A DNA stretch of 64,000 nucleotides, from the NCBI GenBank assembly GCA_029448655.1, contig JACCLO010000011.1, positions 1,674,001 through 1,738,000 on the forward strand, given 5' to 3'. Every line of letters begins with the position of its first letter. The first letter of the stretch is position 1. A program made the translations under genes and the position numbers. The notes under the pieces were generated by a model, which was given only the letters and a program-made list of their open reading frames with translations, did not search any database and was not told the DNA's origin. The stretch comes from Wolfiporia cocos. Taxonomy: Eukaryota; Basidiomycota; Agaricomycetes; Polyporales; Phaeolaceae. Shown here one piece after another: positions 27,060 to 61,479 of the stretch.

Positions 27060-27375
27060 GATGGGTGGATCCAAATGTGCGAGCAAACACTGAACTTTAC
27101 ATAATTGGAGCCACTACATATGCTATGCTTGGACAGTTAGCTATCGCAATAGCTCACATCTTCCAATCTGCTCTGACTCTACGTCTACATAGATAGGCAT
27201 GACATGACCAGTTTATTACGGAGATACGCCTCTATTGCATTTCTGTCGTAGAGTTTCAGTCAACTATCTTAATCTGCCAACTGCCCTTCGCTTAAGAAAT
27301 CGCAGTTGCGAGCTAGGTTTGCACGCAGATTAATCTGCTAGCGGTTGGCAGATTAATCTACTGTGATAATAAAAT

Positions 27376-27460
27376 GGTACATCCAGGATTTGAACCAAGG
27401 ACCTTAGCACAGATGAGAATAACAGCATTGCAGCATAATTAGCCAACTGAGCCATAGTGA
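27376..27460 (-). repeat. tRNA-like Pol III unit, left arm of element A
   Basis: Read on the minus strand it has a box A-like TGGCTCAGTTGGCTAA and a box B GGTTCAAATCC about 50 nt later, then TACCATTTTATT with a T-run terminator. The acceptor stem does not pair well, so it is tRNA-derived rather than a functional tRNA gene. Confidence 0.6.
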
Positions 27461-27761
27461 CAACAATTACCTTTGACCAATCAAAATATATATAACGCAG
27501 ATTTTGCACACAATTTCCACAAATCATCAAGGCAACTAACTGCTACAACAAGCATAAAGAAATCAATGATAGTGGTAGCTTGATTTACCATGCCTGACCT
27601 GGAGCAACTCACCATGGGAAAGCTGAATACACTGGAATCACAGGTCTTTAGAGGCAGATTCATTTGTATTTGTGTTATGGAAGATGTTAAACTGCGAAAA
27701 TGAAGTTTACAAAATACTCTATATATTGCTTAATAGTGTGCAGGCAGTAGTTGGCAAGTTG

Positions 27762-27850
27762 CACTGTAGCGCAGTTGGCTAATGTATGCTGTGCTGCTCT
27801 TATCCTCATCTGTGCTAAGGTCCTTGGTTCGAATCGTGGATGTACCATTT
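27762..27850 (+). repeat. tRNA-like Pol III unit, right arm of element A
   Basis: Box A-like sequence (AGCGCAGTTGGCTAA) and box B GGTTCGAATCG, followed by TACCATTTTATT. It is the inverted partner of the unit at 27376-27460 and reads outward to the right. Confidence 0.6.
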
Positions 27851-28184
27851 TATTATCACAGTAGATTAATCTGCCACAGCTAGCAGATTGATCTGCGTGC
27901 AAACCTAGCTCACAACTGCCATTTCTTAAGCGAAGGGCAGTTGGCAGATTAAGATAGTTGACTGAAGTCCCTCTTCTGTTATGCGCCCAGTACAGCAATG
28001 TCATATCTACTGATTTCCTAGATGCACCACCCAATCTCATATATCATGCTCATGGAGCTCATTACGTACAAAGCGGCCACGGAAAAGCTGACCATCTATG
28101 GCGGCCAGACTGTACATTGCAGTGCAGCACTAGAGTTATCAGCATAAAGATAGAGCTATCATTAATTAGACTCGAATCTCTGCT

Positions 28185-28386
28185 TCACCGCGCCCTACAC
28201 GAGAAGCTTGCAATTGGCGCTTTGCCAGTTTCTGCTCACTACTTTGGGTTTGTAGCTCTGTATACTTTGGGTCCGTAGCTCTGTATAGTCACAGACAGAG
28301 CTCGCGCTGACAACATTTCATAGCTCGCGGGCGATATCTCTATATGGCGAACGTAGTAGTACCCAAGGCCTATGGTGTGTCTCTCG
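28185..28386 (+). pseudogene. Fragment of the WDR7-like gene
   Basis: The plus strand reads HEKLAIGALPVSAHYFG, identical to an exon of the WDR7-like gene (minus strand, about 34020-34085), then an intron ending TTTCATAG, then the next exon start (GRYLYMANVV-type, disrupted). The intron is retained, so this is a DNA-level duplication, not a retrocopy. The intron carries an extra tandem duplication of about 23 bp. The fragment ends abruptly near 28386. Confidence 0.8.
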
Positions 28387-28695
28387 GCAGCGCCGCTCCC
28401 ATGCTGCGCTGTGGGCGGCGATAGTCCGGGGTGCACCAATGTTCTCAGCGCACTAATGTTCTCAGCACTGAGTTTTCTTGTCATTAGTACCAGCCGGAAC
28501 TGTCGCCGCCCACAGCATGCCGCTGCCGATCTGTTCACCCCGGGACCCCCGCGTCTCATCAAGATCCACTATCACATCGACGATATACTCCCCTCGAACA
28601 TTATATACGGTATGACCGCGTTATATAACACGCGAGCGAGCCCTTGCTAGCTTCAGGGATTTGACTCCTCCTGTGCTGGCATTCCTTCTACCGAC

Positions 28696-29373
28696 ATGGA
28701 ATGCAATTACTCTCCTATACAACTTCTATCGTATGTCTGGGATGCGTCCTCGGGTGGCCTGCCCTCATCCATTGATCCATGGACTGGAGTAGCGATGGCG
28801 ACCTTTTTGTCGCTGCTGGTGGTCACTTCCCCACCTCCATCGAATCATCCTCAATCGAAGGGAGTCGTGGTCCTAGTAACAATGCAATCTCAAATTTTCC
28901 AGGTAGGATACTCCTTCAGACACTCATGTTATTGGATGCTGATGGCAGCACGTGCATATTGATCAGCAGTGCCGCAGGACGTGTTGTACAGATACATGGT
29001 ACAGCTCAGAGATGTAACGAACGCCCTTGCTCCCGGTGCGTTAAGCTTCTTGACACTAGCGAAATTTCAATGCTGAGTACCGTGTTGATCATATAGTGAT
29101 GGATGTTCAGCCTATTCTCAGCGATTTTGGGCGGCTCGAGTCAATCTTGATGGGCCCCAGGCATGCGTAGAGCTCGTGCATCTTTTCATTCGTGAGACTT
29201 ACATCCATGCAGCTGATATACCAGAAGAGGTCAGACATGTCCACGCGGAGTATGCGAACGTGATGAGGGACATACGTGCTAAGCTGGCTAATTTGCTCAC
29301 TAATATCATGGCCGTCCATAACAACTTGTCCACCGTACTCGATGCGATCGATGCTACAGCGCAGCCGGTGTAG
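28696..29373 (+). CDS. Hypothetical repeat-family gene, copy 1
   Basis: The best-preserved of three related loci. The start MECNYSPIQLL is followed by an intron (GTATGT...GGAG) and an exon reading SDGDLFVAAGGHFPTSIESS. A further intron leads to VPQDVLYRYMVQLRDVTNAL, and the last part reads AEYANVMRDIRAKLANLL...VLDAIDATAQPV with a stop at 29371-29373. Substitutions between copies are mostly conservative in this frame (I/V, L/M), which argues for past coding function. The phase of the last junction is unresolved. No known domain; the C-terminus is probably a helical or coiled-coil segment. Not interrupted by any transposon, unlike the other two copies. Confidence 0.45.
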
Positions 29374-29938
29374 GATGGATGGACCTACTATGCGTTGGCG
29401 GATACTGAAGAGTCTGTTTACAAGTTGTGCCGAGTCCGATAGCAATCAAATTCCACAGTTCATATTCTCACATCTGCTCCGGTGCTTGAATACGCGAAAT
29501 GAAAATGTACACAACCAGTCCATCAGCCGATCTTGTTATGCCTGGGGTGATCGACAGGTATTCTGATTGGTTCAAGCGGGCGCCACACACAGCCTATATC
29601 GTATGTTACGCCACCCGCACATCCAATTGCCTCCGATACAGCAATGATAGATTTACTGGGTTGGTGGATTATGTCACCTTATCCCATAGACTAAGCTCGT
29701 TACTCACAGCGTCTAGGCGAGTTACAGTAGGTTTCTCTGACAATGTCGCAATGTCAGCTTGAACGGTAAGCGCGTCATTTCCAAAGACAGCACCTACGAC
29801 ATTGCCAATATGCAGACGTGGCCAGTCCACAAGTGGTGCTAGATAACCTTCCGGGCAGGGTGGCCCCTACCAATTGTCGCCTCTATGAACCACGTTCGGG
29901 AGATGATGGAACCGTCAGGAACCGGCTGGTTCTGCGTT
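29374..29938. other. Island DNA, no gene seen
   Basis: About 565 bp between the repeat-family copy and element B. Only short frames without recognisable content. Confidence 0.4.
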
Positions 29939-30128
29939 GTAGAGTTTCAGTCAATTATCTTAATCTGCCAACTGCCCTTCGCTTAAGAAATCGCAGTTGC
30001 GAGCTAGGTTTGCACGCAGATTAATCTGCTAAGTGCGGCAGATTAATCTGCGTGCAAACCTAGCTCGCAACTGCGATTTCTTAAGCGAAGGGCAGTTGGC
30101 AGATTAAGATAATTGACTGAAGTCCCTC
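29939..30128. mobile_element. Minimal hairpin element B (190 bp)
   Basis: Same ends as elements A and C (GTAGAGTTTCAGTCAA ... TTGACTGAAGTCCCTC) flanked by a perfect 7-bp duplication CTGCGTT (29932-29938 and 30129-30135). It consists of almost nothing but two arms of about 90 bp that pair nearly perfectly around a short centre. The tRNA-like units and the core of A and C are absent. It is either a deletion derivative or the minimal mobile unit. Confidence 0.85.
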
Positions 30129-30189
30129 CTGCGTTCACACCGTCAATCTCATGAAGCGCTCTGATTATAAGGTGGCTAGCACGATAGCA

Positions 30190-30965
30190 TCATACGGGAC
30201 GAAACCCAATCTCTTCACTTCCTTCCTCCAGCACTGGGATCTGGCCGATGGCGGAAACCAATCCCATCTCCTTCACTTCATCTCCAGCAAAACTGAGCGT
30301 CCTACTGCGACCCGCGATCGTCATCGCCCTGCCCGCGCCCATATCATGCTTATCCCCTGCTGGAAACAGCGACGTCTCTAGCGTGGCAATATTACGTGGC
30401 GCGGGGTCGTTCTCCTGGCGCTGCAGCTCGCGCGGGAGCAGCACTGCACGATCCAGCGCCACGGGCAAATTGTGATGCCTGCGGCGGATCATCACCGCAC
30501 AGATGATCAGCTTCGATAGGGTGTGTAGCGCGCCTGAGAGGCAGTAATTGGCTTGGGAGTGGCCTCGTGATCAGGGCGAGTATACAGGTAACGGGAGAGA
30601 GCCTCACATAGGGGGTGCCGAGCGACAGCCCGACTATCCCATATGCGGATACGACCTCGAAGACTGGCGGAGTGGTGTCAAAACGCGTTTGTTGGTTCCG
30701 GAGCAAAGCAGGAGGAACATATGAGAAAATATTGAGTCATGAAGCGTTGTCCGTGTTCATCAAGCTGTCACGCTGAGTGAATAACGAGATCCTTGAGTCA
30801 CCACAATTTCACTTGGACAGCCCATCGCAATCACCTCAATGATACACAGGAGAAAAAGAGACAACGCCAGCCACCACATATCTTTGAAGCGGCCTGTGAC
30901 CCGATAATTGATCAGTGAGATCGCAGCACCATATGACAGCTGTTTTTTCGCATGACACAGCAGTT
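30190..30965 (-). pseudogene. Broken Trk copy, C-terminal part
   Basis: The minus strand retains MWWLALSLFLLCIIE, VVSAYGIVGLSLGTPY, LSGALHTLSKLIICAVMIRR, VALDRAVLLPRELQRQEND and a stop at 30190-30192, all colinear with the C-terminal exons of the complete gene at 16944. The N-terminal two thirds are missing: at about 30965 the sequence jumps from the coding exon (remnant of HARKQLSYG) straight into the upstream block also found before the second Trk gene. A stop codon replaces the Trp after the DN.S motif. It is therefore a deleted, non-functional copy. Confidence 0.82.
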
Positions 30966-30969
30966 TGAC

Positions 30970-31500
30970 AGTGTAAATGCAACTGTTACTTCACTAGGGC
31001 CTTGAGTTCCCGATTGGCGCCCGTATTGGATCGCTTTTTTGTCACAGGGTAGAGCATGGCGCTCTACACACTGCTGGAGACAGTACTAGTGTGGGTTGAG
31101 CCACGGAAAACCCACCATTTCGAATACGAAACGAACGTGGGGATCCGCGCTGAATTGAAACCTGGTATGACTTGGTCTGAACTCTGAAGGAGTCGACAGA
31201 TATGCTCTTCGGGTGCCCAAAAAGGATGCTGATCAATCGTCGTAGAGTCTTAGCTGGGTAGCGGCCACACGCCAGCACTGAAGATCGCACAGAATCTGTG
31301 TCCCACAAATTCGGGCTGTCAGTAAGGCCCAATCAAATGCGTAGTCTTCGCGAGTAAATGTACAATTTAAATCTGACATTTGGCAGACGTGGCCAGCTTA
31401 TATTCTGGACTACTGTGTGGGACCTGTGCAGCAAGCCTTGTCCTCGACCTCCCGATGGAGGTCGAGACCCATTGGATCTAGAGATCCTTTCCGGCCGACA
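30970..31500 (-). repeat. Duplicated Trk-upstream block, arm 1
   Basis: Read on the minus strand, this block matches 62110-62700 on the plus strand in order. Shared stretches include GATCAGCATCCTTTT, GCATATCTGTCGACTCC, GTCCAGAATATAAGCTGG and GGCGCCAATCGGGAACT. In both places it lies directly upstream of Trk sequence, so it is probably the ancestral Trk promoter and upstream DNA. Confidence 0.75.
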
Positions 31501-31639
31501 AGTCTATATGTAATGTATATAGTTGGACTCGGACACCGGACAGTTGCAGCATCCCATGTCCTGGTCAAACTCGGCTCAAAGTCAATTATGTAATTCCGCG
31601 TTCATTCATTCTTCCTTGCGAGGTGAACCGGCCATCAGA

Positions 31640-31800
31640 ATGTTGTGTCTCTTCCAATCATTTGTTTATCTGCATTAGCGGCGTCGCTGGAACAGGTCTT
31701 ACAACGAATGAACTCAGTGCCATGAGTTAGCCGTTTCTCCAGATCACTGGCGATCATTTGAAATGTCCTTGACTCTCGAAGCCAAACACACGAACAAAAG
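31640..31800 (+). pseudogene. Trk pore-region relic
   Basis: The plus strand reads SGVAGTGLTTNELSAM followed by a stop, a degraded first pore loop of Trk. It is colinear with the relic at 61640-62050 (minus) and belongs to the inverted duplication arm. Confidence 0.65.
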
Positions 31801-31969
31801 CCACTTCCTCTACGATAAAGACGATACCCCCAGAATCACCCCAAGTTCGTCGTCACGCTGGGCTAGACATATGTCCGGCGCGCCATAACAAATTTCACAG
31901 TTCAACGTCCAACCAGCATTGACTGCACACTGTGTGACGCTCTTTATGTGCTGACTCGACAGGCAGAAT

Positions 31970-32130
31970 AGCTCTTCTGTACAATGGAAGCATATTGAAG
32001 TCAGGGGAGGAGCACGATTGCGCCCGACTTCCAAGCATGCGCGAGCTCGCCTTGCAGCAGATTCCAATTCTAACACTATTTGCTGGTGCCATGAACGTGA
32101 CACTGGGGCGCATCCCTGTGAGAGCATAGA
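31970..32130 (+). repeat. Duplicated unknown fragment, arm 1
   Basis: The plus strand reads SGEEHDCARLPSMRELALQQ then IPILTLFAGAMNVTLGRIP. The same peptide pattern (SGEEHDCARLPGMHKLALQQ, ILVPALFGGFVNMT) is encoded on the minus strand at 61480-61610. The source gene was not recognised. It marks the outer end of the duplicated arm. Confidence 0.65.
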
Positions 32131-32260
32131 CGTTAAAATACCTGGTATAATTGATACATCTTAAGGGTATATGCAATAGTCAGCTTAGGTACAATGGAGA
32201 GAGGTGCCAAAGTCGGAATGCACGACAAAGAATTTCGTTGACGCACGCAGGACGTATCGC

Positions 32261-35200
32261 TTAAGTGCTAAAGGTAAGCGTACTCTCCCTGATCTTTAGC
32301 CTCACACTTCGATCCGCCGGCCACTCGAATCGGACATTTCCGAGGGTGGCCGCCAGCGTCATTCGGCCTCGGAGAATGTCAGAAATGAACTAATGCGAGT
32401 GCCAGCAAGTCGCACTCACCTTCGTCACCAACATTGAAGCTCAGCGTCTTGAACGGATCAGATCCGCTATGCCCCTGCCGCGGCGGCGCACCCGGCATGA
32501 AGAAGCTCGAGAAGCTCGAGCCGACTTTCCAGACAAGCACCACAGATTCCTCGAGGGACACGGTCACCAATCGGCGTCCGTCGGGAGAAAAGCTGCACGC
32601 AGTCGTGCGCTTCTTGTGGCCTTCGAGCACGTAGAGCCGTGTCGCCGTCTTCAGGTCGTACATGACAACCGCTCCCTCGGATGTGCCCACCGCGAGTCGT
32701 TGTGTCGGCATGTGGAAGTCCACCGTGGGGAATCTGGGGGTGTGCGGTCAGTGTCGAAGAAGCAACTGCTAAGAGACGCTCACGTCTGCACGACATGACC
32801 CAATATGTCAGTTGCAGAGTCCAGGACGGCATCTCGGTTCGCAGTCGAGTTGGGATCGAGCGATTTGACAACAGCTTCGACCAGCCGAGGCAAGTTGCTG
32901 TACAGTACTAATGGCTTCTGAAGGCATATTCACGACCGGGGAGTATTCACACAGACTGCGCGCTCACCTTGCGAATCAAGAAGATGACAAGCTGCATCAC
33001 AGATTTCCTATGCTGCACGTTACGCGGCTGCAGAATGTCGATGGTCAACGTGGTCATGAACAACGGCGTATTCGTGGACGCGATGTGCAACACTGCGGTC
33101 CGTGCTTGTGCGCCAATGTTGTGCGGAGAGACCGCCTCCTTACGGGAGGTGGTGGCGAGCGTGAAGAGTGCGCGCAGCATCTCGACCGCGTCGACATATT
33201 GTTGCCACACTTGGAAGCCACGAGAACATAGATCGATCGCGAGTGCTCGGTGTGGAGAGTATTCGTCGTGCAGGTACAGCGCGACGGATTTCGCGATATC
33301 CGTTAGTACACTGGAATTATCCGCGTCAATAAGTAAGCAAGAGTGGTTTAAGCTAGAATTATTCTCTGTGCGTACCCAGTGGATAGGAGTGTGTATTTCT
33401 CGATAGCAACAGAGCCACAGATTGCGATAGAAGTCGCGCCACGAACCAACTGGCGTTGCGATTCAGGCACATTGGAAGGTACTGCGGTATAGAGAGTGAG
33501 CTGGATCTTCGCAGTGTACGTGAATACTAACGGTATTGGTGCCAGTGTTGCACGAGCTGAGCCGTTTCCTCATCGGTGAGCCGTGCTACTCCGGCGTCAA
33601 AAAGTAACCGCGAGGCATGTCGGACCTCAGGGACTGAGCTGATGAGCACGATACAATACGTTCGAGGGTGAGGCTATAGTCACCGGCGGTACGAAGCCAA
33701 GCTCTGGCGAGGAAGGGCAGACTGGGTGACCTGTACAAAGGCCCTGTGACTTCCGTTAGAGATGCTGCGTAGAAGGTCATCACGGTCGTTGCATCGGCAG
33801 CAAGCTCTATTCCCGCGTCAGAACCAAGAGTGTTTCAATTGATATAGGCACACCTTCATGATGCGCGAGAGCTTGCAGCAGGGATATCAATGCCAGAGCG
33901 CGCAAGGCCGATACATCAGGAGAGACACTCCATAGGCCTTGAGTACTACGTTCGCCATATAGAGATATCGCTCGCGAGCTATGAAATATTGTAAGCGCGA
34001 GCTCCGTCTACTATACCGAACTACAAACCCAAAGTAGTGAGCAGAAACCGGCAAAGCGCCAATTGCAAGCTTCTCGTGGCAGATGCGGTCAATCTCGCTA
34101 CTGAGCCCAAATGTCAACAGCCCGGCGAGTACGCATCGGAGCTGTTCAAGTTTGTGTTTCAGAATAGTATCAGACTTGGCTGACTCGGTAGCCGGTGGAT
34201 TGCTAGAATGTTGCTTGATGAGCGCCTCCACGTCGAGCTGCAACGTCGATGCTGCAAGGAATATGGATATGATAAGCTGCACCGCCTAGCAAAGCAAATG
34301 CTCTGTACGAACCTGTATTGGCTCCACACTCGCCGGGTATGCTTGACAATACACTGAATGATGGAGAAGCCATGGATTCTACATCCCTTCAGGATCATTG
34401 AGTATCGACTGCGCCATGATCGTTTGAACATACCATCCGACCCAGGCACCTTGACTGAGCATCTCATCAGCCTTGGCCGCGGTCATCGAGCGCCAGAATT
34501 CCCTCGTCTTGGTGTCCCACAATCTAGCCCGACCATCTGCGTACAAAAGAAGTAGATTGTCTCCTGAGATGTTGACCTTCTGGAGTGGAGCGGCGGCGGT
34601 AGGTATAAGGCATATACTGGCACGATGCACCTTAGAATCGCGTAGAAGCAAAGAACATGGAACGAGAAGTGTACTTACAACTGGTGCCCATCGATTGTGA
34701 TCACCGCAATCGTGCCATCCTGTGATATGCACAGCACACACCCCTTCAGCCGCCCGACATCCTCGCCATTCACGTGTATAACATATGCCAGCGGGGCCGT
34801 GAAGACCGTCCACCGCGCCAGCAGCGCCAGCGACCTGCGCACGCGCCGCGTCAGCCATCACACCGCTCGAAACCCCCGTTTCTGTACTTACCGACAAGAC
34901 CAGATCGCAACCGACCCGTCATCTGCGCCGCCAACGATGTACAGCTCCTTCGTCCGCTCGTCCACAACCCTATGCAGGGCAACGACGTATCCTCCCAGCG
35001 ACACATCGGACGTCCTCACCTCCGAGCCGTCAACGCTGCCTCGAGCCCAGTCCACGAGGCTGGTCCGGCGCAACCGGCCGTCGCCTGCACAAGCTACAGT
35101 CAGCTGGACCATGGTATGGTATATCGAGCGCAAACGCACTGCATCCTAGGATAATCTCGTCAAGGTCGACGGGGAGCGCCGCGGTGATCCTAGCCCCGGA

Positions 35201-37439
35201 CTCGGACTCGGATGCAGGCGCGCTAGTGCGTGATTTCCACAGCGTGCATGCGTGCCCCGAGTCGAGGGCAGCGATCCGGAGGCGGCGGCGACCGTCCTTA
35301 ATGTCGGTGCTGTAGACATGTGTGCCACCCGGTGCGAGATACTGGCAGTCAGCGTGGGGCAGGGGGATTGACCGTGCTATTGTCGGGCTGGAAGAATAGT
35401 GCGTCAACAAAATGTGCAAACGACTGAGGACCGTGACTAACCGGAGACGTCGGGAGGACGGGGAAGACGTAGTGTCGACGGCATCGTTGTCGGCTGTCAC
35501 TTCTATGATCGAATACGTGTCCGCATGATCCTGCATGACCATGAGTGAAGCGTAGTGAGATGAGCATTGAGGGTCGTACAGGATGCAACACAGTGAACGA
35601 TTCAGCGTGCAACCATTCCACATCTCGCGTATCCGACAACGGCTCGGTAAACAAGACGCGTGCACGGTGATCATGATACTCGAGCACCTAAACACTTTCC
35701 TCAGCAGCCAGAACCATAAGCTCTAGAACCATGCTTACCGAAAAGTACGCATCGCTCCACACTGCGACCCGCACGCCGCCACCACCATCAATAGCCTGCG
35801 CGCCACACATGCGCCCGCGCACGGGCACGTCCCCCAGATCGTTCGCCTCCCCGAGCCACGCGCGCGCCGCCACACCGTCCGTCTCCGCCTCCATCTCTGC
35901 TACGCGCTCCCGCGAGAGCGCCTGTAGCGCCTGCAACGCCTTGAACGGGTTCGGTATCGGCAGCGGCGTGCTCGACTCCGCGTCCTTCTCCCCGTCGCTG
36001 TCCGACGAGGGTGACGCATGCGGTGCAGAGAGGGACAGCGTGCGCGCGACGAGGCGGCGCGCGGCGCTGTAGAGCAGCGTGAGCGTGCCTATGCGCGCAG
36101 CGTCAGACGTGCGCGGGGCTTAAATGCAATATAGCGGTTACCGTCTGTCTCGCGGCATAGTGCGACTGAATCCGCGCAGCCGGCGGCCTCCCAGTCGCCC
36201 AGCAGCGACAGGGCCAGCTCGAGCCCGTCGTCGTGCACCTCGTACGCCACCAGCCGGACGCGTCCCTCGGAATCCGAGTCGGCCGAGTCAGCCGCGCCGC
36301 TCCCATCCTGCGCGTCGCTCGTTGCGCACACAATCAATATATTCATCTGTGACGTAGCGTACATGTTGGTATGAGACATGGGGATACAAAGCCCAGACCG
36401 CACCTCGCCCAGTACCTCCACATGCAGGCCCCGCCACGTCCACAGCGTTGGCGCGTACGCCGTCGCGCTCAGTGGGTTGCGTGCGAGACTGACGGACTGC
36501 GCGGGGACGGTGGTCGACGCCAGAGATCTCCCGTCGACGGTGGCAAACACGGATATGTCTCTGTATGCTAGGTCGATCAGGAGGCGTTGCGTAACGACCA
36601 AAGGACGAGGGGTGGCCTCACCCTGTTTCCTGGAGGCTGATGAGGGACCTGCCTTGGTCGTAGGATTTCAAGGCTGCCACCGGGTGCGCAGAACCGCGCC
36701 GCGGTGGCAGTACGTGGCAGGTCAGCAGCAACGACGACGAGGCTGCACTCTCACCGATTTGGCTGTTAAATGCAGTGGCAGGAGAGAGAGGAGACGGTGA
36801 GGACGCGGAAGACCTGGAGGGTGGCGTGAGGGACGACACCCGCACCCTGCTCACGCTTGTAGCGGGCGAGGGCTTGTCGCGCTCGCGCTCGTTGCCCGCG
36901 TCCGAGGTCGGTACAGACGACAGGGCACCACTGAACGAGTTCCGGTTCTCCTTGATAGGCTTGCCCTTCAGGAATCCCTTCAGCTTGTCTGGCTCCTGCT
37001 CGTAGTCGACGTAGTTCTTTGGCGCTTCGACCTGCTCTGCGGAGACGGAGGAGACTACGCGCGAGCGCGTGACGCTGAACGGTGCCGAATTGGACTTTAT
37101 GGACGACGGAGAGGCAGAGCGTGAGTGCCCACGCACGAGGCTGGAGTGGCGCGCTGCATGCGCGTGTCGCACGGGAGACGTAGGTAGGCCTGAGTCGACG
37201 GGGCTGCCCTTCGGACGGGCCTCAGGAGTTGGCGGGCCAAAGAGGACGATCGTGCCGTCGTCGCTGCCTATCGCCGCGCCGCAAGCAGAGCCGTCAGTAT
37301 ATGGTGCTGCCCAAGTAGCGAGACAGGTTGGAGATCCTGATAAGTAGCTCTGTTCAACAAGCGAGTCCGCTGGGCCCTTCACCTCCCAAGGGAGAATTGG
37401 CGGGAAAGTGAGCGGTACAGTCAGAGATCCCGAAGCCAT
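32261..37439 (-). CDS. WDR7/rabconnectin-3-beta-like WD40 protein
   Basis: Large multi-exon minus-strand gene. It starts MASGSLTVPLTFPPILPWEV (ATG 37439-37437). The N-terminal part has WD-like units (ACGAAIGSDDGTIVLFG) interrupted by a Ser/Arg/Pro-rich linker (about 37200-36750). The middle is a poorly conserved helical region (LAASTLQLDVEALIKQ, HEKLAIGALPVSAHYFG). The C-terminus is diagnostic: QRLAVGTSEGAVVMYDLKTA, VLEGHKKRTTACSFSPDGRR, VWKVGSSFSSFF and PPRQGHSGSDPFKTLSFNVG, then a last exon RMTLAATLGNVRFEWPADRS to the TAA at 32261. This is the WDR7/rabconnectin-3-beta family, which in animals partners DMXL proteins to regulate V-ATPase assembly. A fungal role in V-ATPase control is inferred. 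A piece of it is duplicated at 28185-28386. Confidence 0.82.
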
Positions 37440-50036: not shown

Positions 50037-51419
50037 ATGGACTACGACCGCCGCTCAGCAGTATCCTCATTCTACGGCGGACGCAAGTCCTCCGACGCCC
50101 TGAATGCGGACTTCCCACCGGGCGCGGCGCCGCCGCGACGACCTGCCGTCGACTCGGCCTCCTCGTTCTACGGCCCGGACCGTGCGTCGCGCGCAGGGTC
50201 TGCGATGCTCGGCAGGCCTGGCGCGGGGTACAATCGCTCGTCGTACTTCTACGCCGGGCGGGAGGAGCCCGTGAAGGGCGGCGTGGACGAGGAGAGCATG
50301 CTCTCGCAGCGCAACGACAACTTCGACATCTACGCGGACTTCAACAACCAGGGCCCGCGCTATTCGAACGTGCTCGTGAACGACAACGGGTGAGTGCGCG
50401 CGGCCTCTGCGGGGGGGGGGGGGGGGGGCGTCCCGGCGCTGATCCCGCGCCGTGCAGGTATCGCCCGGTGCCCGAGCCCGCGCCGACGAAGGAGTACCAG
50501 CCCGCGACGCCGAACCAGGTCGAGCTCGTCACCGTGCCTGCGCTCGGGCCTGAGTGGAAGGCGTCCGAGATGCGCGACATGACGAAGGCGGCGAAGCGCG
50601 AGCGGGCGATGGAGTCGTTTGCGGAGAAGTGGAATGCCTGGAACCGCGGCGAGCGGGGCATATGCGGGCAGCACTTTACGCGGCGGACGGTGGTCTACAT
50701 CCTCTTCGGGCTGTGTGTGGCGTGAGTTCCCTTCGTCGTCAGCGCATGACCGCATGACCGATCTCCAGCCATTCGTAAAGCATCGGACTCGTGCTCGCAT
50801 TCACGATACCTCGCGTGCCCGATGTCTCGTTCCCCTCGTCGAATCCGCTCTCCAAGGCGACGGAGCCTTTTAATGAGACGGTGCCCGTCATCTTTTCGCG
50901 CTCCCCCGCGAACTTCAGCTTCCCCGCCCAGGTCGGGCTGGAAATCGACACGAACAGCAATTACTTGCCGCTCATTATCTCCAAAATGGAGGCGACGGTG
51001 ACTGACCTGACGACCGGGGCCCAAGTTGCGACTGGCAGCCGTGGCAAGACGACTCTGCCTGCAAAAGCATTCCCCGTCATCCAGATTCCACTGAACTTCA
51101 CGTATATCGCACCGAACGACTCGGATATTACATGTACGTCGAGGCAAACAACTCTATGCTCCTTGAGTTGCTTGACATCGCATTCTCTACAGGGCTCGAT
51201 TACTACGACGCATGCCGGAATCCCGCGGCGAACGCAAACAACTCACGACCAGGTGCGTATAGAGGCTTGCAGTAGGCACAATCTCTGATCGCCGCTTCAG
51301 TACTGCAATTCAACCTCGATTTCGATATGTGGATCGTGGGCCTCGTTGGCAAGCGCAGTAACTCCGCGACCGTGACGGAGGCGGAGTGCCCGATCACACT
51401 ATCGCTATCGGCTGTATGA
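50037..51419 (+). CDS. Type II membrane protein with LEA2-like lumenal domain
   Basis: Starts MDYDRRSAVSSFYGGRKSSD. The first about 210 residues are cytosolic and disordered, with the repeated SSFYG motif. A basic segment (GQHFTRRTVVYILFGLCVA|IGLVLAFTIPRVP) forms the single membrane helix across an intron. The exported part includes NETVPVIFSRSPANFSFPAQ then VGLEIDTNSNYLPLIISKME, NFTYIAPNDSD, and, after further introns, VLQFNLDFDMWIVGLVGKRS, ending ITLSLSAV at 51417-51419. The order helix - beta-rich domain with NxS/T sites resembles LEA2/NDR1-HIN1-like membrane proteins (inference). Function unknown. One intron contains an 18-G run. Same strand as the tetraspanin downstream. Confidence 0.7.
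50411..50428 (+). repeat. 18-G homopolymer in an intron
   Basis: Eighteen consecutive G lie in a short intron between GTGAGTGCGC and GTGCAG of the gene at 50037. The length may be approximate, since homopolymers are error-prone in sequencing. On the transcript it is a strong G-quadruplex candidate. Confidence 0.8.
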
Positions 51420-51905
51420 TCGGCCTGTTCTTCGTTCCTCTTTGCTCTTGTCTTCTTAGGATGTTTGGACTCGTTTCGAAAACATTGTTGGACTATAGCT
51501 GGACTTATCATCTCATTTAGTGTGTAATTGGTCGTACCTACGCACTCGCCCGTCATCTGCTCATGCGCGTACTGCGACATTGTTTCGAGATCCGTACACT
51601 AATCAATCGCTTGCTCGAACACTCTTCTATGACTGTCTGCATCTACTGCGTGCGGTCCTCCGATTGGTACGTCTGGGATGCATTGATGCCATCTTCTTCC
51701 AGCTCTATATATGCCGCTCAATTGGCAGCGTTCCAACAATATAGATGGGTACGTCATGCGATTCAATCTCATTTTGCTAGGCTCGATCTTAATCCCGTAA
51801 ACAGGCTGACCATTGTGATCCTCACCATTGCAGTTTAGACCACTAAACGCACCGTACAAGATCCCGCAAGACTACGCACGGCGCGCGAGTCTCCCGCCAA
51901 GCGCC

Positions 51906-53761
51906 ATGATGGACCGCCGCCACCCATCCTCGTCCTCGGCCCTCGACCGCCGCGCGTCCATCCGCCGCCGCTCCGGCGCGCACAGCCCGCGCCCGCAGAC
52001 AGGGTCCGCTCCGCACTCTCGGGCCCAGCGCTGTCCCTCCCTTCGCGAAGGCGCACGGGCCTCCGGGCAGACCCTGACGGTGCAGGTCGAAGACGCCGAC
52101 GCTATAGGCAGCGAGCCGACGATCCTGCTCGTGCGCCCGACGCGCCCGGTCGCGGAAGTGCGCACGCCGCCGCTGCCCGTCTTCGCCCGCGACGCGCTGG
52201 GGGTCCCGCCGCGAGAAGACGCGCCGCGGCAGCTGGGATGCTTGTCGCCACGCGCGGGAGAGGACTTGCAAGAGGACGGATGCTGTGGATCCGAGGCGGC
52301 GCATTTTAGCCCGGTGCCGCTCACCCCGCGCCCGCCGCAGCCATCGCGAGACCCCTCTGCGGCCTCTATTGCGACAACTCAGACGTGCACGTCGCACGAC
52401 TCGCGTCTGCCCACTCCTGATTTCGGTGCGCGCGCGGGAGACGCTGTGCGCTCATATTTTCCGCGGCTATTCTCGTTCGTGGGCGGGCAGAGTCGTCCCA
52501 ATGACGAAGCCCAGTGTCCCCCGAGCGTACGCAGCAACTCCAGACACAGCGCGTCCTCCAGCATGTCGGGTGACAGCACCGCCGTGTCGGATACATCCTC
52601 GAGCGCTGCACGCTCAATTACGCCAATAGACATGCACAGGATGGAGAGCACCGGTGCGCAACGCCCGGTGCTTCTGCCGTCGTTCAGCACGACTACTAAA
52701 TTCACGAAGAAATTCCCCCGCCCGCGCTCAGTGAAAAATCTGAGCTATACCAATGGGCGGAAGGCGGCATTTGCAGCGACAATGCTGGAAGAGGGCGAGG
52801 GCCTCGGCGTGGAGAAGGTGGACCGGTGGACAACGCACAAGTGGTGCTTGCTATCATCCGTGTGCACCGTGCTTGTCTACGGTGTAGCAGGACTTATCTG
52901 TGCATTTATGACATGGTTTCGGAGTAAGCTTCCTTCTTTGCATACTACATGCTCTACTGACAATTCCGCGCTGCAGCCTGGGAGAATGCAGACGTAATGT
53001 ACGTCGCCGACTACGACATCCTGATGCTCATCACATTGGCCTCTTCGATTCTCCTCATCACCTTTCTCGTGGGGATCAGCGGCACGCTGCTCAACTCACG
53101 CCCCATCCTCGCCGTGTACGCGCTCCTTCTCTGGCCGGCCTTCATCGCGATCCTCTCCATCGGCTACACGGGCTACAAGCGGTATGCGTTCGCTCTCGAC
53201 CGGAAGCTCAACCTCGCCTGGAGCCAGTGGTACACGCCTGTCGGCCGGCTCACGATCCAGAACGCGCTGCGCTGCTGTGGCTATTACGACGCGCTGCACG
53301 AGGCGACGGCGAGCACGCAGTGCTACCCGCGCACCCCTCTGCCCGGGTGCAAGGGCAAGCTGTACCGCTTCGAGCACGAGAACCTCGCGACGATCTGGTC
53401 CGCGGCGTTCGCGCTCGTGCCCCTGCACATCGCCAATATTGTCGTGTCTTTGCTGTGCGCCAATCATGTAACGCGGACGTTTGGGAAGGGCATCATGCCG
53501 AAGCGGTACTGGCTGAGTGGCGCAGACGTTAGGGCAGACGCGGAGAGGCTCATGCGCACGTTTCCGGACGGGCGACCGGTGGTGAGGCCGGGATCGACGC
53601 GGCCTCCATCGAGCAGCCTGTTCCGAGAAGACAAAGAGGAAACCGCGTCGCTGCTGGAGAACGACTGGAATAGCACGGCCAGCAATGGATTGCGGCTTGT
53701 TCCGCAAGACGTTAACGAGCAGGCCTTATGTATCGTTCCATTGCTGCACAGCTCGAGATAA
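51906..53761 (+). CDS. Tetraspanin (Tsp2-like)
   Basis: Starts MMDRRHPSSSSALDRRASIR with a cytosolic N-terminal region of about 310 residues rich in Ser, Arg and Pro. Membrane helices: KWCLLSSVCTVLVYGVAGLI; then, after one intron (52923-52978), MLITLASSILLITFLVGISG; ILAVYALLLWPAFIAILSIG; and, after the large extracellular loop, IWSAAFALVPLHIANIVVSL. The loop has the tetraspanin signature CCG (NALRCCGYYDALHEAT) plus further cysteines (TQCYPRTPLPGCKG). Four helices plus CCG identify a tetraspanin; the long N-terminus is typical of basidiomycete Tsp2, which acts in plasma-membrane microdomains and morphogenesis. The C-terminal tail has about 80 residues. It ends 108 bp from the convergent thioredoxin reductase stop. 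Confidence 0.88.
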
Positions 53762-53868
53762 GGAAATTGATAACTTTGCGTGTCAGACCTAGATAATGTG
53801 AAAGTACAATCTAACAAGACAACCAGTGAAATAGACGATATGCTATAAGTCTATAGATACGAGCAGCT

Positions 53869-55473
<1,605 letters not shown>

Positions 55474-55585
55474 TGGTAAGAAGCGGGATACGCCGGGAAT
55501 GGATGCAGCCGCGAGGAGTAGTGCTCGTTGACGAGCAAAGAGAGATGGTAAATGCAGTTTGGAGGACCGACAAGGGATGGCAGAC

Positions 55586-55592
55586 TTTATAA
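55586..55592 (-). promoter_or_regulatory. TATA box of the thioredoxin reductase gene
   Basis: On the minus strand the sequence is TTATAAAG, 114 bp upstream of the annotated ATG. If used, transcription would start about 30-60 bp downstream, inside the open frame that precedes the ATG. Confidence 0.5.
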
Positions 55593-55643
55593 CTCGGAGG
55601 AGGGCGGTAGTCACACCAGAATTACTCTATCAAGTGATAAATC

Positions 55644-55657
55644 GCATCACGTGATGC
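55644..55657. promoter_or_regulatory. 14-bp palindrome with CACGTG core
   Basis: GCATCACGTGATGC is a perfect palindrome about 171 bp upstream of the thioredoxin reductase ATG and just outside its TATA box. CACGTG is the site of bHLH factors such as Cbf1/USF types. The extended symmetry suggests a dimer-binding operator. Confidence 0.45.
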
Positions 55658-56302
55658 TTACGCGCCCTCCGCACGCGTCCCTCGCTGGCCCATGTCAAGC
55701 GCAGATTGCTTTCCAATCGTGCATGATCAAAAACCGCGTCTAGCGCAACAGAAACACGGCATCCGCTCACCATATCGGCCGGTCGTCCTGTGCCGGCCTC
55801 GGAGAGGTATAGTCGCGCCTCTAGAGGGGGACACGAATACCTTGGTCGGACGGACAGCGTCTCGAACCAGGATTTCACTAGCGAAGACACAACTTCATCA
55901 GCCCATTCACCTGTCACTTGAGACAAAGCGGCTTGTTAATCTTGCCTGTCTGGTCACCGTCCTGCAGGGACCGCGGTCATTATGCGCGTCCATTAAGGCG
56001 TGGATTGTGAAATGCGCGAGCAGGTCGCTTCACCGTCTGCTCATAACCTGAGTTGTTGAGCTAAGTCTGGCCCAGTGGCTAGACGCAGCCAGACGCTTAC
56101 GGAGTTGCCTTATTCCGGGACGGAGTTTCGGCGTGTGCCGAAGAGAAGAGATGAGGTTCGATCTCCGCTCAAATATCCCGGAGCACGTGCTCTCTCGGAA
56201 CGGAGACTACGAACGCGTCTGTCCACGACGTCGACGACAGCGGCCGCGCCTTGAGCATTCCCGACTACCAGCGTCCTACAATTCACACATTCGACCTCCA
56301 TA

Positions 56303-57175
56303 ATGTCTGATCTCTGTCCCGTGTATGCGCCTTTCTTTGGTGCGATGGTGAGCACGGGTATTGCTGTAGGTCGCGCAATGCTGACACGAGACGTCAGGGT
56401 TGCACCAGCGCCATCGTCTTCACTTGTGAGTGTCTCGCGTGCACAGCCTCATTGCTGTAGTCGTTGACGGTACGCCGTACCTCGTGGGTGACCAGGCATT
56501 GGTGCGAGGTGAGTGCGCACGATGTATTCACCTCCCGCAGTAAAGCTGAGCGCAGTCGCAGTTATGGCACCGCCAAGTCGGGCGTCGGCATTTCCGCCAT
56601 GTCGGTCCTCCGACCAGACCTGATGATGAAGTGTGTCATCCCCGTCATCATGGCTGGTATCATTGCTGTGAGTGCATTGCGTGTATTGTATAGTCCGCCT
56701 GCGCCGACCCTCGGTGACGTAACAGATCTACGGCCTTGTCGTCTCGGTGTTGATCTCGGGAGACCGTGAGTGTTCCATGGGCTAAAGCATTGGCGAGACT
56801 GAGACTGTGCAGTGACGGTGCAAATGACGCTGTTCCAGGGCTTCGTGCAGCTGGGTGCCGGGCTCTCGGTCGGGCTGGCGGGTCTTGCCGCCGGTTTCGC
56901 GATCGGTATTGTTGGTGATGCTGGCGTGCGGGGAACGGCGCAACAGCCACGGCTCTTCGTCGGAATGGTATGCCGTGACTCGACTACACACTCAAATGCT
57001 CTGACAATTCCGCTGTAGATTCTCATTCTCATCTTCGCCGAAGTGTTGGGTCTATACGGTCTCATTGTTGCTCTCATCATGAACTCCAGGGCTGCTGATG
57101 CAGCCGGTATGGTGAGTACCGATGTCTACCTATCCGCTATGCGCTCGTTGAATAGTCCTCTAGTGCTTGCTATAA
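56303..57175 (+). CDS. VMA3: V-type ATPase proteolipid subunit c
   Basis: Exons 56303-56347, 56398-56425, a 13-nt microexon 56496-56508, 56562 onward, and more. The spliced start is [20 protein letters not shown] then [20 protein letters not shown]. It continues [75 protein letters not shown] and [20 protein letters not shown] with the essential glutamate of helix 4. Four helices, about 165 residues: the vacuolar proton-translocating ring subunit. The final intron is ambiguous. GTGAGT joined to the acceptor at 57163 gives a stop at 57173-57175; an earlier acceptor would extend the frame to 57257 with an atypical tail. Confidence 0.93.
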
Positions 57176-57869
57176 GCGCGACGCAGCACTAGACAAGATC
57201 AGACAAAAGGAGCGGGTAAGGCCCTCCGCGCCTGCTCGGGAACTCGCCGCGGACTAGTTCAAACATTGTCTATCACGTCGCCACCATCTGTCCGTGACGC
57301 TTTCGCGCACGTTGTTCAATCACAATTGCCATGTTGTTTCAATGTTCCTGTGCCGTCAATATATCATATCCTGGACCTCGGATGCAATGCGCTGTGATGT
57401 ACGTTGTGCGTACGTGGGCACAGGCGCCCTGCAAAGCTGGGAGTGCACTGTGGACTGGCCAGGTCGCCGATTAGCAGGAGCAAGGCCTGCAGCCTATCCA
57501 TGTCGACAGAGCGTCGCCTCGATTATGGCTGCTATTTTCCGCTGCCGCTACTGACCTTATATCTTATTCGCCGCCTGTAATAGGTTCATTGCCGGGGACC
57601 CCGGAGTCACCGGCGCCTCGAGACTTCCAAGCTCCTCGCGATATGAAGTTGAAGTTGACTGTGGCAATTGTTTCATAGTAGCGTTGCGAAGATTGCCACC
57701 AGATTGCATGGTCACGAAGATCATGGAGTGCATGATTGAATCCACTTTGGACCATGACTGTCATCGTCGCGGGCCGTTTGGGTGCTGGGACTGATGTGTG
57801 TGCATGTCTATGCATAGTATCCTCGAAGCCGCTACTGCCTCTAACCAAGACACAGAGTGCGAAAAGGAT
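57176..57869. other. Intergenic, no supported gene
   Basis: Nearly 700 bp downstream of VMA3. A minus-strand frame near 57564-57848 (HALHDLRDHAIWWQSSQRYY) looks somewhat protein-like but matches nothing known. Confidence 0.4.
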
Positions 57870-58370
57870 GCATTGAATGGGATGAAATCAGCGTAAAGTA
57901 GGTTCACCCAAACTGAAGAAGATGTTCGGTAGAGGCAATATTGATGCCGCGCAAATGCGGTAGCGTTCAAAAACGATTCAGGCAGACATGCGCCTACTTG
58001 GATGGAAGCGCCTAAATGTCGGTGTGAATGTCTTCACAGACAGAAGAATGGAAAGTATTACCTCCGTGAAATGCGGGCACCTCGGGATCCAGCAAGAGTA
58101 TTGCCATGGGATGTCGTAAGCCCTGCTCGGTCACTTCATGCGCTCGTTGAGCCGCCGGAGCGAAAGCTATCGACACAGCCACCTCGGGTAACATGCGTTA
58201 GAGCCCAGCCAAGTGCCACTACCTTTGAAGTGATAAAACAGACAAATGACATTTGTTAAGAAATATAGAAAGCCATTCCTCCAAGTTCAAAGCCGTGGCA
58301 CTGTCAAGCATCAAAACATTCTTTCCGAGTTCTCGAAGTACAAAAGCTTAGAGTCTCTGCTGATAGGTTC
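57870..58370 (+). repeat. Dispersed repeat, copy 2
   Basis: Matches 37940-38420 in inverted orientation. The plus strand frame reads LHRQKNGKYYLREMRAPRDP then ARVLPWDVVSPARSLHA and stops at the same place as the other copy. By eye the two differ at roughly one base in ten. Confidence 0.75.
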
Positions 58371-58796
58371 GGGTATTTTCTGCTAGTCGCAAACAAAGAA
58401 TGTGAGGGGATTCGGGGACGGATTCCGATGGACTTTGGTATTTTTTGATACGACGCAAAACCTGCATCGAAATGTGCTGTGTATGTTCCAGTAGCCTCCG
58501 ATAGTTTTCTGCAGCTCAGAAAATGATTTTTGGTATTTATTTATACGTTCTGATTGAATGAAGAGCGAAGGCCTCTAGGTATGAGTATAATCTGATAATT
58601 TTGGGTCCAACGCCCCCAGGTATTTTGCGGTAGCCTCCCAGTATGCTGGAAAAATATTATGTATAATGAGGTATAAAATGTTACATATCAAACTCTACTC
58701 TGATAGCTATGGGTATCGTACAGTAGCTATTGCTAGGATGCCGGGCGCTTAAAATCATACCCAGAGCTATCAACCGTTCGGTTTTGTATCAGATCG
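58371..58796. other. AT-rich island DNA
   Basis: About 425 bp of AT-rich sequence without coding frame or recognisable repeat, up to the 7-bp target duplication of element C. Confidence 0.45.
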
Positions 58797-58925
58797 GTAG
58801 AGTTTCAGTCAATTATCTTAATCTGCCAACTGCCCTTCGCTTAAGAAATCGCAGTTGCGAGCTAGGTTTGCACGCAGATTAATCTGCTAACTGCGGCAGA
58901 TTAATCTACTGTGACAATAAAATGG

Positions 58926-59012
58926 CACCTCCCAGATTCGAACCAAGGACCTTAGCACAGATGAGAATAACAGCATCGCAGCATAATCAGCCAACTGAGC
59001 TACAGTGCAACT
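58926..59012 (-). repeat. tRNA-like Pol III unit, left arm of element C
   Basis: On the minus strand: box A-like sequence TAGCTCAGTTGGCTGA, box B GGTTCGAATCT, then a T-run within TGCCATTTTATT. It reads outward to the left. Confidence 0.65.
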
Positions 59013-59299
59013 GGTGTTACCCCCATTTTAAGCAATATATAGAGTATTTTGTAAACTTCATTTTCGCAGTTTAACATCTTCCATAACACAAATACAAATG
59101 AATCTGCCTCTAAAGACCTGTGATTCCAGTATATTCAGCTTTCCCATGGTGAGTTGCTCCAGGTCAAGCATGGTAAATCAACCTACCACTATCATTGATT
59201 TCTGTATGCTTGTTGGAGCAGTTAGTTGCCTTGATGATTTGCGAAAATTGTGTGTAAAATTTGCGTTATATATATTTTAATTGGTCAATAGTACCTGTT

Positions 59300-59388
59300 G
59301 CCGCAATGGCTCAGTTGGCTAATTATGCTGTGATGCTGTTATTCTCATCTGCGCTAAGGTCCTTGGTTCGAATCCGGGATGTACCATT
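59300..59388 (+). repeat. tRNA-like Pol III unit, right arm of element C
   Basis: Box A TGGCTCAGTTGG at 59307-59318 and box B GGTTCGAATCC at 59365-59375 both match the eukaryotic tRNA promoter consensus exactly. A T-run (CCATTTTATT) follows. The T-stem can form with G-U pairs. The acceptor stem does not pair, so it is tRNA-derived. Confidence 0.7.
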
Positions 59389-59568
59389 TTATTGTCACAG
59401 TAGATTAATCTGCCGCAGTTAGCAGATTAATCTGCGTGCAAACCTAGCTCGCAACTGCGATTTCTTAAGTGAAGTGCAGTTGGCAGATTAAGATAATTGA
59501 CTGAAGTCCCTCCAGATCGTACCCATTATCTTCTGATAGGCCCTGATACGAGGTACTTTCACTGGGAC

Positions 59569-60541
59569 TCAGACTCCATCGAGGACGGTGGACAAGATGT
59601 TATGGGCCTCCATGGTATTGATGATGAGATTGGTCAATTTAGCACGTATGTCCCTCATCACATTTGCATACTCCGCGTGGATATGCCCGAGCTGTTCTGG
59701 TATATCAGCTGTATGAGATGTAAGTCTCACAAACGAAAAGATGCACGAGCTCTATGCACGCCTGGGACCCATCAGGATTGACCTGAGCCGCACGAATTCG
59801 CCGAGAATAGGCTGAACATCCATTACTATATGATTAAGACGGTACTCAACATTCAAATGTCACTGGTGTCAAGAAGCTTAACGCACTGGAAGCGAGGGCG
59901 TTCGTTACATCTCTGAGCTGCATCATGTGTCTGTACATTACATCCCGTGGCGCCGCTGGTAGAGACACACGTGCTGCCATCAGCACCCAGCAACGTGAGT
60001 GTCTGAAGGAGTATCCTGCCTGGAAAATTTGAGATTGCATTGTTACTAGGACCACGACTCCCTTCTGTAAAACCTAGACAGCCTGTTAGCCTATCTCAGT
60101 CGCAGGGATGGTATAACGACTTTATTGTAGTACCTAGACAGCCTGTTAGCCTATCTACGCACACTACATGTGAGTATATGCGGGGTAACAGCGTATCGTA
60201 GAATGGGAAACATACCTCAGTCGCAGGGATGGTATAACGACTGAGGAAAGGAGAAAACAGCAAGAGAGAGAGGTATTTGAACACAGCTACACGTGACTCT
60301 GACAGAACTCCACAACGATGATGACATGACGTATATGGTAAGTAGTGTAACATATATGGTAACAACACCTTCAATTGAGGACGGTTCAATAGAGATGGCA
60401 GAGTGACCACCAGCAGCGAACAGGAGGATAAAAAGGTCATCATCGCTACTCCGGTCAATGGATCATGGATGACGGCAGGCCAATCGAGGACGCATCTCAG
60501 ACGTACAATGGAAGTTGTATAGGAGAGTTATTGCGCTCCAT
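59569..60541 (-). pseudogene. Hypothetical repeat-family gene, copy 3 (transposon-riddled)
   Basis: The minus strand starts MERNNSPIQLP, has an exon reading SDDDLFILLFAAGGHSAISI, and later MQLRDVTNALAS-type sequence and AEYANVMRDIRAKLTNLIIN, ending VLDGV with a stop at 59569-59571. A 302-bp solo LTR splits the second exon, element D sits about 94 bp upstream of the start and element C about 57 bp downstream of the stop. The last junction has the same unresolved phase as in copy 2. Non-functional as it stands. Confidence 0.55.
60066..60367. mobile_element. Solo LTR (302 bp)
   Basis: Begins TGTAAAACC and ends GGTAACAACA (TG...CA), flanked by a 5-bp duplication CCTTC (60061-60065 and 60368-60372). 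The paralogous locus near 28858 carries the uninterrupted sequence with one CCTTC equivalent (GAAGG). Terminal TG/CA and a 5-bp duplication are diagnostic of LTR retrotransposons. No internal region remains, so it is a solo LTR. The minus strand has an AATAAA motif. It contains an internal partial duplication with an intron-like 61-nt difference (see findings). Confidence 0.82.
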
Positions 60542-60774
60542 GTCGGTAGAAGAAATGCCAGCACGGGAGGAGTCAAAGCCCTGAAGCTAGCAAAGGCTCA
60601 CCCAGGTGTTATATACCACGGTCATACCGTATATGAGGGACTTCAGTGCCGGAGATGCATCTTTAGAGACACCGCAGATGCATCTGGGGCACTCTATGCA
60701 ATATTAACGCCCAAGTGTGCTGCATAGATGTATCTGAATAAAATAAGATGCATCTGCGCAAGAAATACCTGTGC

Positions 60775-60860
60775 AGGGTTCGAACACTTGACCTGGGATC
60801 AGCGAAGTTGCAACCTGTACCACTTCACCAAACGGTCTTGGTAACCAAGTCACATACTCG
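60775..60860 (-). repeat. tRNA-like Pol III unit, left arm of element D
   Basis: On the minus strand: box A-like TTGGTGAAGTGG (about 60820-60833) and box B-like TGTTCGAACCC (about 60776-60786). It reads outward. Sequence differs from the tRNA-like units of A and C, so it came from another tRNA type. Confidence 0.55.
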
Positions 60861-61124
60861 TTAATATGATCCATTTAATGTCCTTTCATCGCCGTAGCTG
60901 TTGATTGTCAAGTCACACCTTAGTGCAATGTTCCTGAAGGTAATTTATGACAGCATACTTACCTCATTGCAGATACATATGGGTTGTGGGATGCATCAAT
61001 AAAGAGATGCATTCTGAGTTCAACCTAATGAGCTTACTGACATATGAGTAGAATGTTAAATTTTATTACAACCGTTATTATATTGACTACTGACTATATA
61101 TTTGCGCAACATCTCCCTCTCACC

Positions 61125-61205
61125 AACTGCTTTAGCTGAGTGGTTTCAGTTGCTGTTTCGCTGAGATCTCGCGGTTCCTGGTTCGAATCCCGGCTTGTGA
61201 GGCTT
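61125..61205 (+). repeat. tRNA-like Pol III unit, right arm of element D
   Basis: Box A TAGCTGAGTGG (61133-61143) and box B GGTTCGAATCC (61180-61190) match consensus, followed by TTTATTTT as terminator. CTCACCA upstream and TTGTGAG downstream can pair at six of seven positions, an acceptor-like stem. Resembles a Ser/Leu-type tRNA but with insertions. Confidence 0.6.
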
Positions 61206-61479
61206 TATTTTGGTACTAACGCGCGCCTAATTTCGATGATTAGAGTGCCCCAGATGCATCTGCGGTGTCTCTAAAGATGCATCTGTGGCACTGAAACTCT
61301 AGCGTATATAATGTTCGAAGGGCGTATATCGTCGATGTGGTAATGGATCTTGATGTCCGCGGTAGGCGCCGTACCGTGGGCGACACGCGCACACTTTTCA
61401 CATGTCAGTTTCAACGCTAGAAGCTTTAGATTGTTCTTGGGGTTCGTGCGCTCATAAGGACGCGCTCCAGTCGTCATGT

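Follow-up and report, generated by a model that had tools for sequence, protein, structure and literature searches.

The window analysed here, a stretch of 64,000 nucleotides from Wolfiporia cocos (contig JACCLO010000011.1, positions 1,674,001 to 1,738,000 of the forward strand), belongs to an assembly of 64.4 Mb in 76 contigs (GCA_029448655.1). Its genes include one for a tetraspanin and one with the C-terminus of NOT2/3/5, as well as a fragmentary FMN-dependent dehydrogenase, of whose relatives those with an organism name are from Suillus, Mycena and Trametes. The window further carries the short mobile elements A to D. An earlier note on this DNA had described A, C and D as a new class of mobile element, in which inverted-repeat units carry two divergent tRNA-like cassettes of the type read by RNA polymerase III (Pol III).

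When the sequence was re-read, the coordinates, ends and 7-bp target duplications of these three elements proved to be as claimed. Element A (27248..27973, plus strand, 726 bp) lies between TTCTGTC (27241-27247) and TTCTGTT (27974-27980). Element C (58797..59512, plus strand, 716 bp) is flanked by CAGATCG on both sides, and element D (60635..61302, minus strand, 668 bp) by CGTATAT. Element B (29939..30128, plus strand, 190 bp), which had been overlooked, consists of arms of the A and C type joined without promoter units or spacer, with CTGCGTT on both sides. The central junction of B has one exact match in the genome, B itself; 31 places match when up to two mismatches are allowed, few of them inspected.

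Families, ends and target duplications

A, C and D were found to be members of genome-wide repeat families. The elements end in GAGGGACTTCAGT on one side and in (G,C)TAGAGTTTCAGT on the other. The first end occurs 555 times in the genome (267 + 288) and the second 604 times (305 + 299), compared with 1 + 1 and 6 + 10 occurrences of the respective backward-read patterns. Three families were recognised, namely AC, which includes A and C, D, and E, the last known via locus L077. A first look gave 529 candidates for C, 171 for D and 92 for E; since 40 candidates were scored per query, the copy numbers are inexact. Some E copies have an insert in their interior, as at C34:5035958-5038297, where it measures about 1.7 kb and lies at query position 450. 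Loci L001-L060 are the best matches, so that statistics on them favour well-kept copies.

End pairs were also sampled by position, and not by element type, on contigs C1 and C2 and in the first 1.07 Mb of C3. The pairing used 87 GAGGGACTTCAGT and 100 TAGAGTTTCAGT places out of the first 100 listed of each; 13 of the listed GAGGGACTTCAGT places, lying beyond C3:1070681 where the last listed TAGAGTTTCAGT place stands, were left out. This yielded 70 pairs, 59 of which span 587-722 bp and 11 more than 1 kb, with none shorter, while 17 GAGGGACTTCAGT and 30 TAGAGTTTCAGT ends were unpaired. Among the long pairs, nested elements were seen in L064 and L047. Two of the 11 belong to L068, where an AC copy sits inside a D copy; at L063 a large insert, itself containing a C-type copy, lies within an E copy, and at L067 an AC copy contains an insert.

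Duplications of 7 bp, with at most one mismatch, were present at 77 of the 94 end pairs from the window and 80 loci. In a mispaired control, 23 of 8742 combinations of left and right flanks from different insertions matched in the same way. By family, the duplication was found in 43/47 pairs for AC, 31/39 for D, 2/3 for E and 1/5 for others, and some of the pairs that lack it are false outer pairs. No clear target motif was visible in the 77 duplications. Individual insertions could also be followed. At L021 a C-type copy sits inside a D copy with the duplication GCATCTG, and among the sequences retrieved there were 40 matches that span the rejoined site. For L068, whose flanks agree only after a one-base shift, 41 matches span the rejoined site, and for the C-type copy within L063 none of four does so. 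Two AC-related copies, L069:39-724 and L070:41-756, terminate in GTAGAGTTTCAGT on either side; no target duplication is visible around them, and they may be recombinants.

The anatomy of the elements and their DNA-transposon nature can be taken as almost certain, and the mobile DNA element proposed earlier stands. The term new class does not: structurally, these are non-autonomous elements with terminal inverted repeats (TIRs), that is, miniature inverted-repeat transposable elements (MITEs), and what is unusual is the cargo of their arms. MITEs with long TIRs are short and non-coding, with duplications of fixed length and high copy numbers, and the elements described here agree with them in each of these respects. 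They are unlike other MITEs in that each arm contains a Pol III promoter unit, which is conserved from family to family. In the open-licence literature searched, by titles and abstract openings, no TIR element whose arms carry Pol III promoters was recognised.

The earlier note had named Dada transposons for comparison and had considered that the tRNA-like parts might direct insertion. Dada elements are reported to have no TIRs, to show subterminal repeats in some families, to insert in RNA genes and to make 6-7-bp duplications (PMC3706591). The 7-bp duplications observed here fall within that range, and a link with small RNA genes is shared; the presence of TIRs, the lack of a target motif, the position of the tRNA-like parts inside the element and the one copy inserted in a D element set the present elements apart. 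A Dada-like process, in which the units or the transposase steer insertion to tRNA or Pol III genes, is very improbable. Besides the duplications showing no clear motif, the ends on C1 were not in excess near tRNA genes: 43% of random draws matched or beat the observed median distance from a tRNA gene to its nearest end (8 tRNA genes, from a partial list with 63 of 2530 candidates scored, against 55 of the 88 listed C1 end places). One sampled end would fit such steering, a lone TAGAGTTTCAGT end at C1:2265326-2265337, 234 bp away from a stretch of the opposite strand, C1:2265560-2265633, that matches tRNA well (57 bits). This vicinity could be due to chance, or could mark an element with an intact tRNA. 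Neither the comparison with Dada nor guided insertion gained support.

Inverted arms and their Pol III-type units

Both arms of A, C and D contain a box A and a box B, each with at most one mismatch to TRGYNNARNNGG and GGTTCGANNCC, respectively, and a T-run, all reading outward. In A, the left unit lies on the minus strand at 27371..27454 (box A 27443-27454, box B 27386-27396, T-run 27371-27374) and the right unit on the plus strand at 27767..27851 (box A 27767-27778, box B 27826-27836, T-run 27848-27851). The units of C occupy 58919..59002 on the minus strand (box A 58991-59002, box B 58934-58944, T-run 58919-58922) and 59307..59390 on the plus strand (box A 59307-59318, box B 59365-59375, T-run 59387-59390). 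Those of D are found at 60760..60830 on the minus strand (box A 60819-60830, box B 60776-60786) and at 61133..61211 on the plus strand (box A 61133-61144, box B 61180-61190, T-run 61204-61211). An outward unit with both boxes and a T-run in each arm had been reported before and was seen again, with an imperfect T-run on the left of D, where the terminator is a weak TTTCTT (60760-60765).

The same order, with the left half carrying its unit on the minus strand, the right half on the plus strand and a T-run after each unit, was observed in the AC consensus, the D consensus and one E copy. The consensus alignments comprised 32 of 43 AC copies, all of a single spacer orientation, and 31 D copies of 640-695 bp. 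An outward pair appeared in none of 400 dinucleotide shuffles for each of AC, D and E, even at two mismatches per box. Among copies of up to 730 bp, both units were kept at one mismatch per box in 40 of 44 AC copies, and at two mismatches per box in 41 of 44 AC, 29 of 32 D and both E copies. The observation of paired units is confirmed, and most of the copies examined keep the pair together with the 7-bp duplication.

ARAGORN and Rfam detected no tRNA in the window (0 each), and there was none among the weak Rfam matches for C, D, L077, L074 and L069. Judging from their sequence, the units would be tRNA-derived promoters with a predicted promoter function, and the predicted outward transcripts stop approximately 90-130 bp inside the element ends. 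tRNA-derived short interspersed nuclear elements (SINEs) possess a box A / box B promoter of tRNA type, which is the likeness between them and the present elements. Unlike SINEs, the elements have a fixed 7-bp duplication, inverted repeats, two units and, in those read, no 3' tail.

The arms of AC form one inverted repeat of about 200 bp with 92-96% identity, the unit included. The strongly matching TIR is shorter in D (55 bp at 96%) and in E (62 bp at 92%, L077); these arm identities exclude the outer 7 bases, which are different between the two ends. Both arms of D and of E can nevertheless be aligned through the unit, a result obtained in none of 500 simple shuffles for each. Since the arms are homologous through the unit, the unit belonged to an ancestral long inverted repeat. 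As read from these alignments, the two divergent cassettes appear to be one cassette seen twice. The earlier claim of a conserved architecture held in that paired outward units recur across the otherwise diverged families AC, D and E; it had missed that the two D arms are homologous through the unit.

Subterminal palindromes were confirmed as well. The AGATNNATCT palindrome occurs four times in AC, six times in D and twice in E, with a spacing of 20-23 bp where paired, and 16 of its 17 sites in the window fall within elements A to D. Of the several pairs, one, AGATTAATCT, lies in the left arm of A (27327..27359). The ends and these palindromes are common to AC, D and E, and the spacers of the three families are mutually unrelated. 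Relative to the ends, the AC spacer was oriented one way in 32 of 43 copies and the other way in 10, with one unclear. In the window itself the interior of A is inverted with respect to that of C, which the earlier note had not reported. Recombination between the arms would produce such flips.

Conservation of the promoter boxes and possible roles of the units

The positions of the boxes were set on the AC consensus. Parts of L069 are 61-86% identical to this consensus. Between the two, boxes and terminators are kept at 58 of 62 positions, inter-box sequence at 82 of 136 and spacer at 176 of 288 (P = 5e-7 for box versus inter-box), and the effect was also found in the units taken singly (unit 1, P = 4e-4; unit 2, P = 1e-3). 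The diverged AC-like fragment at L082 gave 28/31 for boxes and terminators, 41/68 for inter-box sequence and 215/249 for spacer (P = 0.002 for box versus inter-box); here the transcribed body changed faster than the spacer. It is probable that selection acts on the boxes.

These comparisons bear on the possibility that the Pol III transcript itself works in trans, for the benefit of either the element or its host, as an RNA that resembles a tRNA or acts as a decoy. In its favour, the units have a predicted promoter as well as a terminator, and the RNA of one D unit folds better than 196 of 200 shuffles. The inter-box body diverges like the spacer with respect to L069 and faster than the spacer with respect to L082. 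There is no tRNA match in Rfam, and the RNAs of three of the four units fold no better than shuffles. A function of the RNA is quite unlikely in our judgement. The proposal in the earlier note that outward transcripts aid mobilisation is possible as such; the predicted terminators inside the ends and the lack of conservation of the body argue against it.

A role in cis is considered the likeliest, in which the unit is retained as promoter DNA and not as RNA. The elements would be non-autonomous cut-and-paste DNA transposons, and the ancestor of at least three families would have carried the unit within its inverted repeat. As suggested by the anatomy, a transposase acting in trans would cut at the ends. 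TFIIIC, TFIIIB and Pol III on both arms would hold the ends open and shielded from silent chromatin, which would give the transposase access; the benefit in cis might, for instance, be an opened chromatin state or a barrier at the ends. In yeasts, chromatin barriers are formed by tRNA genes and by TFIIIC sites. The reading as a whole, MITEs with 7-bp duplications and with Pol III promoter units in the arms that act in cis, is possible, with a confidence somewhat below even. More tentative still is its stronger form, namely that a transposon lineage depends on the Pol III promoter DNA in its own inverted repeats and uses TFIIIC and Pol III as a built-in chromatin opener or insulator, with selection on the boxes and no RNA involved.

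Several points weigh against the reading with a role in cis. The box test rests on two diverged relatives, L069 and L082, each represented by a single copy, and within one element the two units do not count as independent. When AC was compared with A, no box effect was seen (58/62 versus 118/135, P = 0.22). Among the 31 D copies, variants shared by at least five copies were found in 3 of 54 box columns versus 20 of 127 inter-box columns; this is weak support because rare variants too are fewer in the boxes (14/54 versus 48/127). At one mismatch per box, both units are kept in just 17 of 32 D copies and in neither of the two E copies (copies of up to 730 bp). Element B stands without units between full duplications, a picture that a deletion after insertion would also give. 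To these points are added the well-folding D unit RNA mentioned above and the fact that no transposase with these ends was found among the genome parts read.

Some of these observations would equally be expected if the units were passengers. According to this explanation, the ancestor captured a tRNA-like or SINE piece, and the useless units persist through the recent amplification of a few masters. The AC copies are young and alike (mean 97.9% identity to the AC consensus, 32 copies), so their shared units may reflect few masters, and both the unit-less B with its fully duplicated flanks and the missing box effect between AC and A fit in well. Against L069 and L082, however, boxes and terminators are far better kept than the rest of the unit, and the units are retained in three families with unrelated spacers. 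We consider the passenger explanation rather unlikely, and at the same time a serious rival to a role in cis.

The nearest described analogue of the present elements appears to be Helenus / TRIMp3. These are reported to be non-autonomous long terminal repeat (LTR) retrotransposons with tRNA-like LTRs, fungi being among the hosts, and their author considered that promoter motifs are kept and a tRNA function is unlikely (PMC10886601). Both kinds of element are short and non-autonomous and have a tRNA-derived Pol III promoter, of predicted activity in the present elements, in either terminal repeat; promoter motifs are retained while tRNA structure is not. Helenus elements differ by direct LTRs, a primer-binding site, a polypurine tract and 5-bp duplications in fungi, whereas the elements studied here have inverted repeats, 7-bp duplications and ends of the DNA-transposon type. 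By analogy, they look like a DNA-transposon mirror image of Helenus / TRIMp3. A related observation was made at L082:5197-5627, where the diverged AC-like fragment carries a 431-bp insert, TGTCACAG..TTTGTGTCA, with the 5-bp flanks CCTAG on both sides. With box A / box B-like sites on one strand, it is reminiscent of a Helenus-like element reduced to a solo LTR, and this genome may thus harbour the two kinds of Pol III carrier side by side.

Pol III promoters are known in retroelements, in which the transcript is the copying template. A cut-and-paste transposon needs no RNA template, and conserved Pol III boxes in such an element would point to a use of TFIIIC at the DNA level. If the proposal of a role in cis is true, the lineage would be the DNA-transposon counterpart of TRIMp3. 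In practical terms, such elements scatter tRNA-like signals, and annotation may call them SINEs or tRNA genes.

Search for a transposase

One candidate source of the transposase is a hAT7-like group, which would be compatible with any role of the units. The hAT7 families of rust fungi are reported to make 7-bp duplications (PMC12730594). The likeness lies in the length of the duplication, which is not specific to hAT7, and in the basidiomycete hosts; no hAT gene with the present ends was found in the copies read. Of nine hAT domain matches, five are within 5 kb of a sampled end, which is closer than expected at random (P = 0.003). Nesting or patchwork is what accounts for the near-end hAT matches read, those at C1:2275937 and C1:2301543, among others, not having been read at both ends.

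The individual candidates for an autonomous partner were rejected. L083 is a 4559-bp A-type element with hAT fragments, in which the hAT is a separate nested transposon with its own ends, CAGGGTTGGGC..GCCCAACCCTG, and an 8-bp duplication, GATTAATC; in a further copy, L085, these borders, or positions close to them, are where the similarity breaks off. At L064 several insertions are nested in a D copy, among them a hAT with an 8-bp duplication, and the D copy at L047 was struck by a small element (a MITE) whose end matches the hAT of L093. At L082 a truncated hAT stands beside an LTR-like piece and the AC-like fragment. At L081 there is, next to an isolated fragment of an end, a hAT with its own 3' end (..GGCAACACTA, shared with L091 and L092), and the hAT 3' end of L089 also differs from the ends of the present elements. 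The hAT copies read (L064, L081-L083, L085, L087-L093), which are part of the 48 hAT matches in the genome, have ends other than these. Such differing ends, and a duplication of 8 bp where visible (L083, L064 and the L047 MITE), speak against a hAT7-like origin, which is conceivable and on this evidence somewhat doubtful. A described partner with these ends, which the earlier note had named as a refuting case, was likewise absent from what was an incomplete search.

Other superfamilies were considered as well. Kyakuja elements (KDZ) are reported to have 7-bp duplications in Agaricomycotina, CA..TG ends and no TIRs (PMC12730594). The present elements resemble them in the length of the duplication and are unlike them in having TIRs and ends other than CA..TG. 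The genome contains 129 KDZ domain matches, and none of the 19 in the sampled stretch is within 5 kb of a listed end. MULE matches number 62 genome-wide, with none on C1 or C2 and hence none near the ends sampled there; neither KDZ nor MULE provided a lead in the sampled stretch. MULE matches of equal score recur on small contigs, several dozen of them, and those with two matches have them about 78-83 kb apart, as at C21:42956 and 120934, C26:42191 and 121163, and C28:42183 and 125333. These recurring matches perhaps represent a large tandem repeat or a giant element.

Finally, two further repeats were noticed in the window. By eye, 28900-29430 and 59540-60020 appear to be diverged inverted copies of each other, which would make a longer repeat beside B and C. 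Between 60040 and 60250, cctagacagcctgttagcctatct and cagtcgcagggatggtataacgact are each present twice inside approximately 210 bp.

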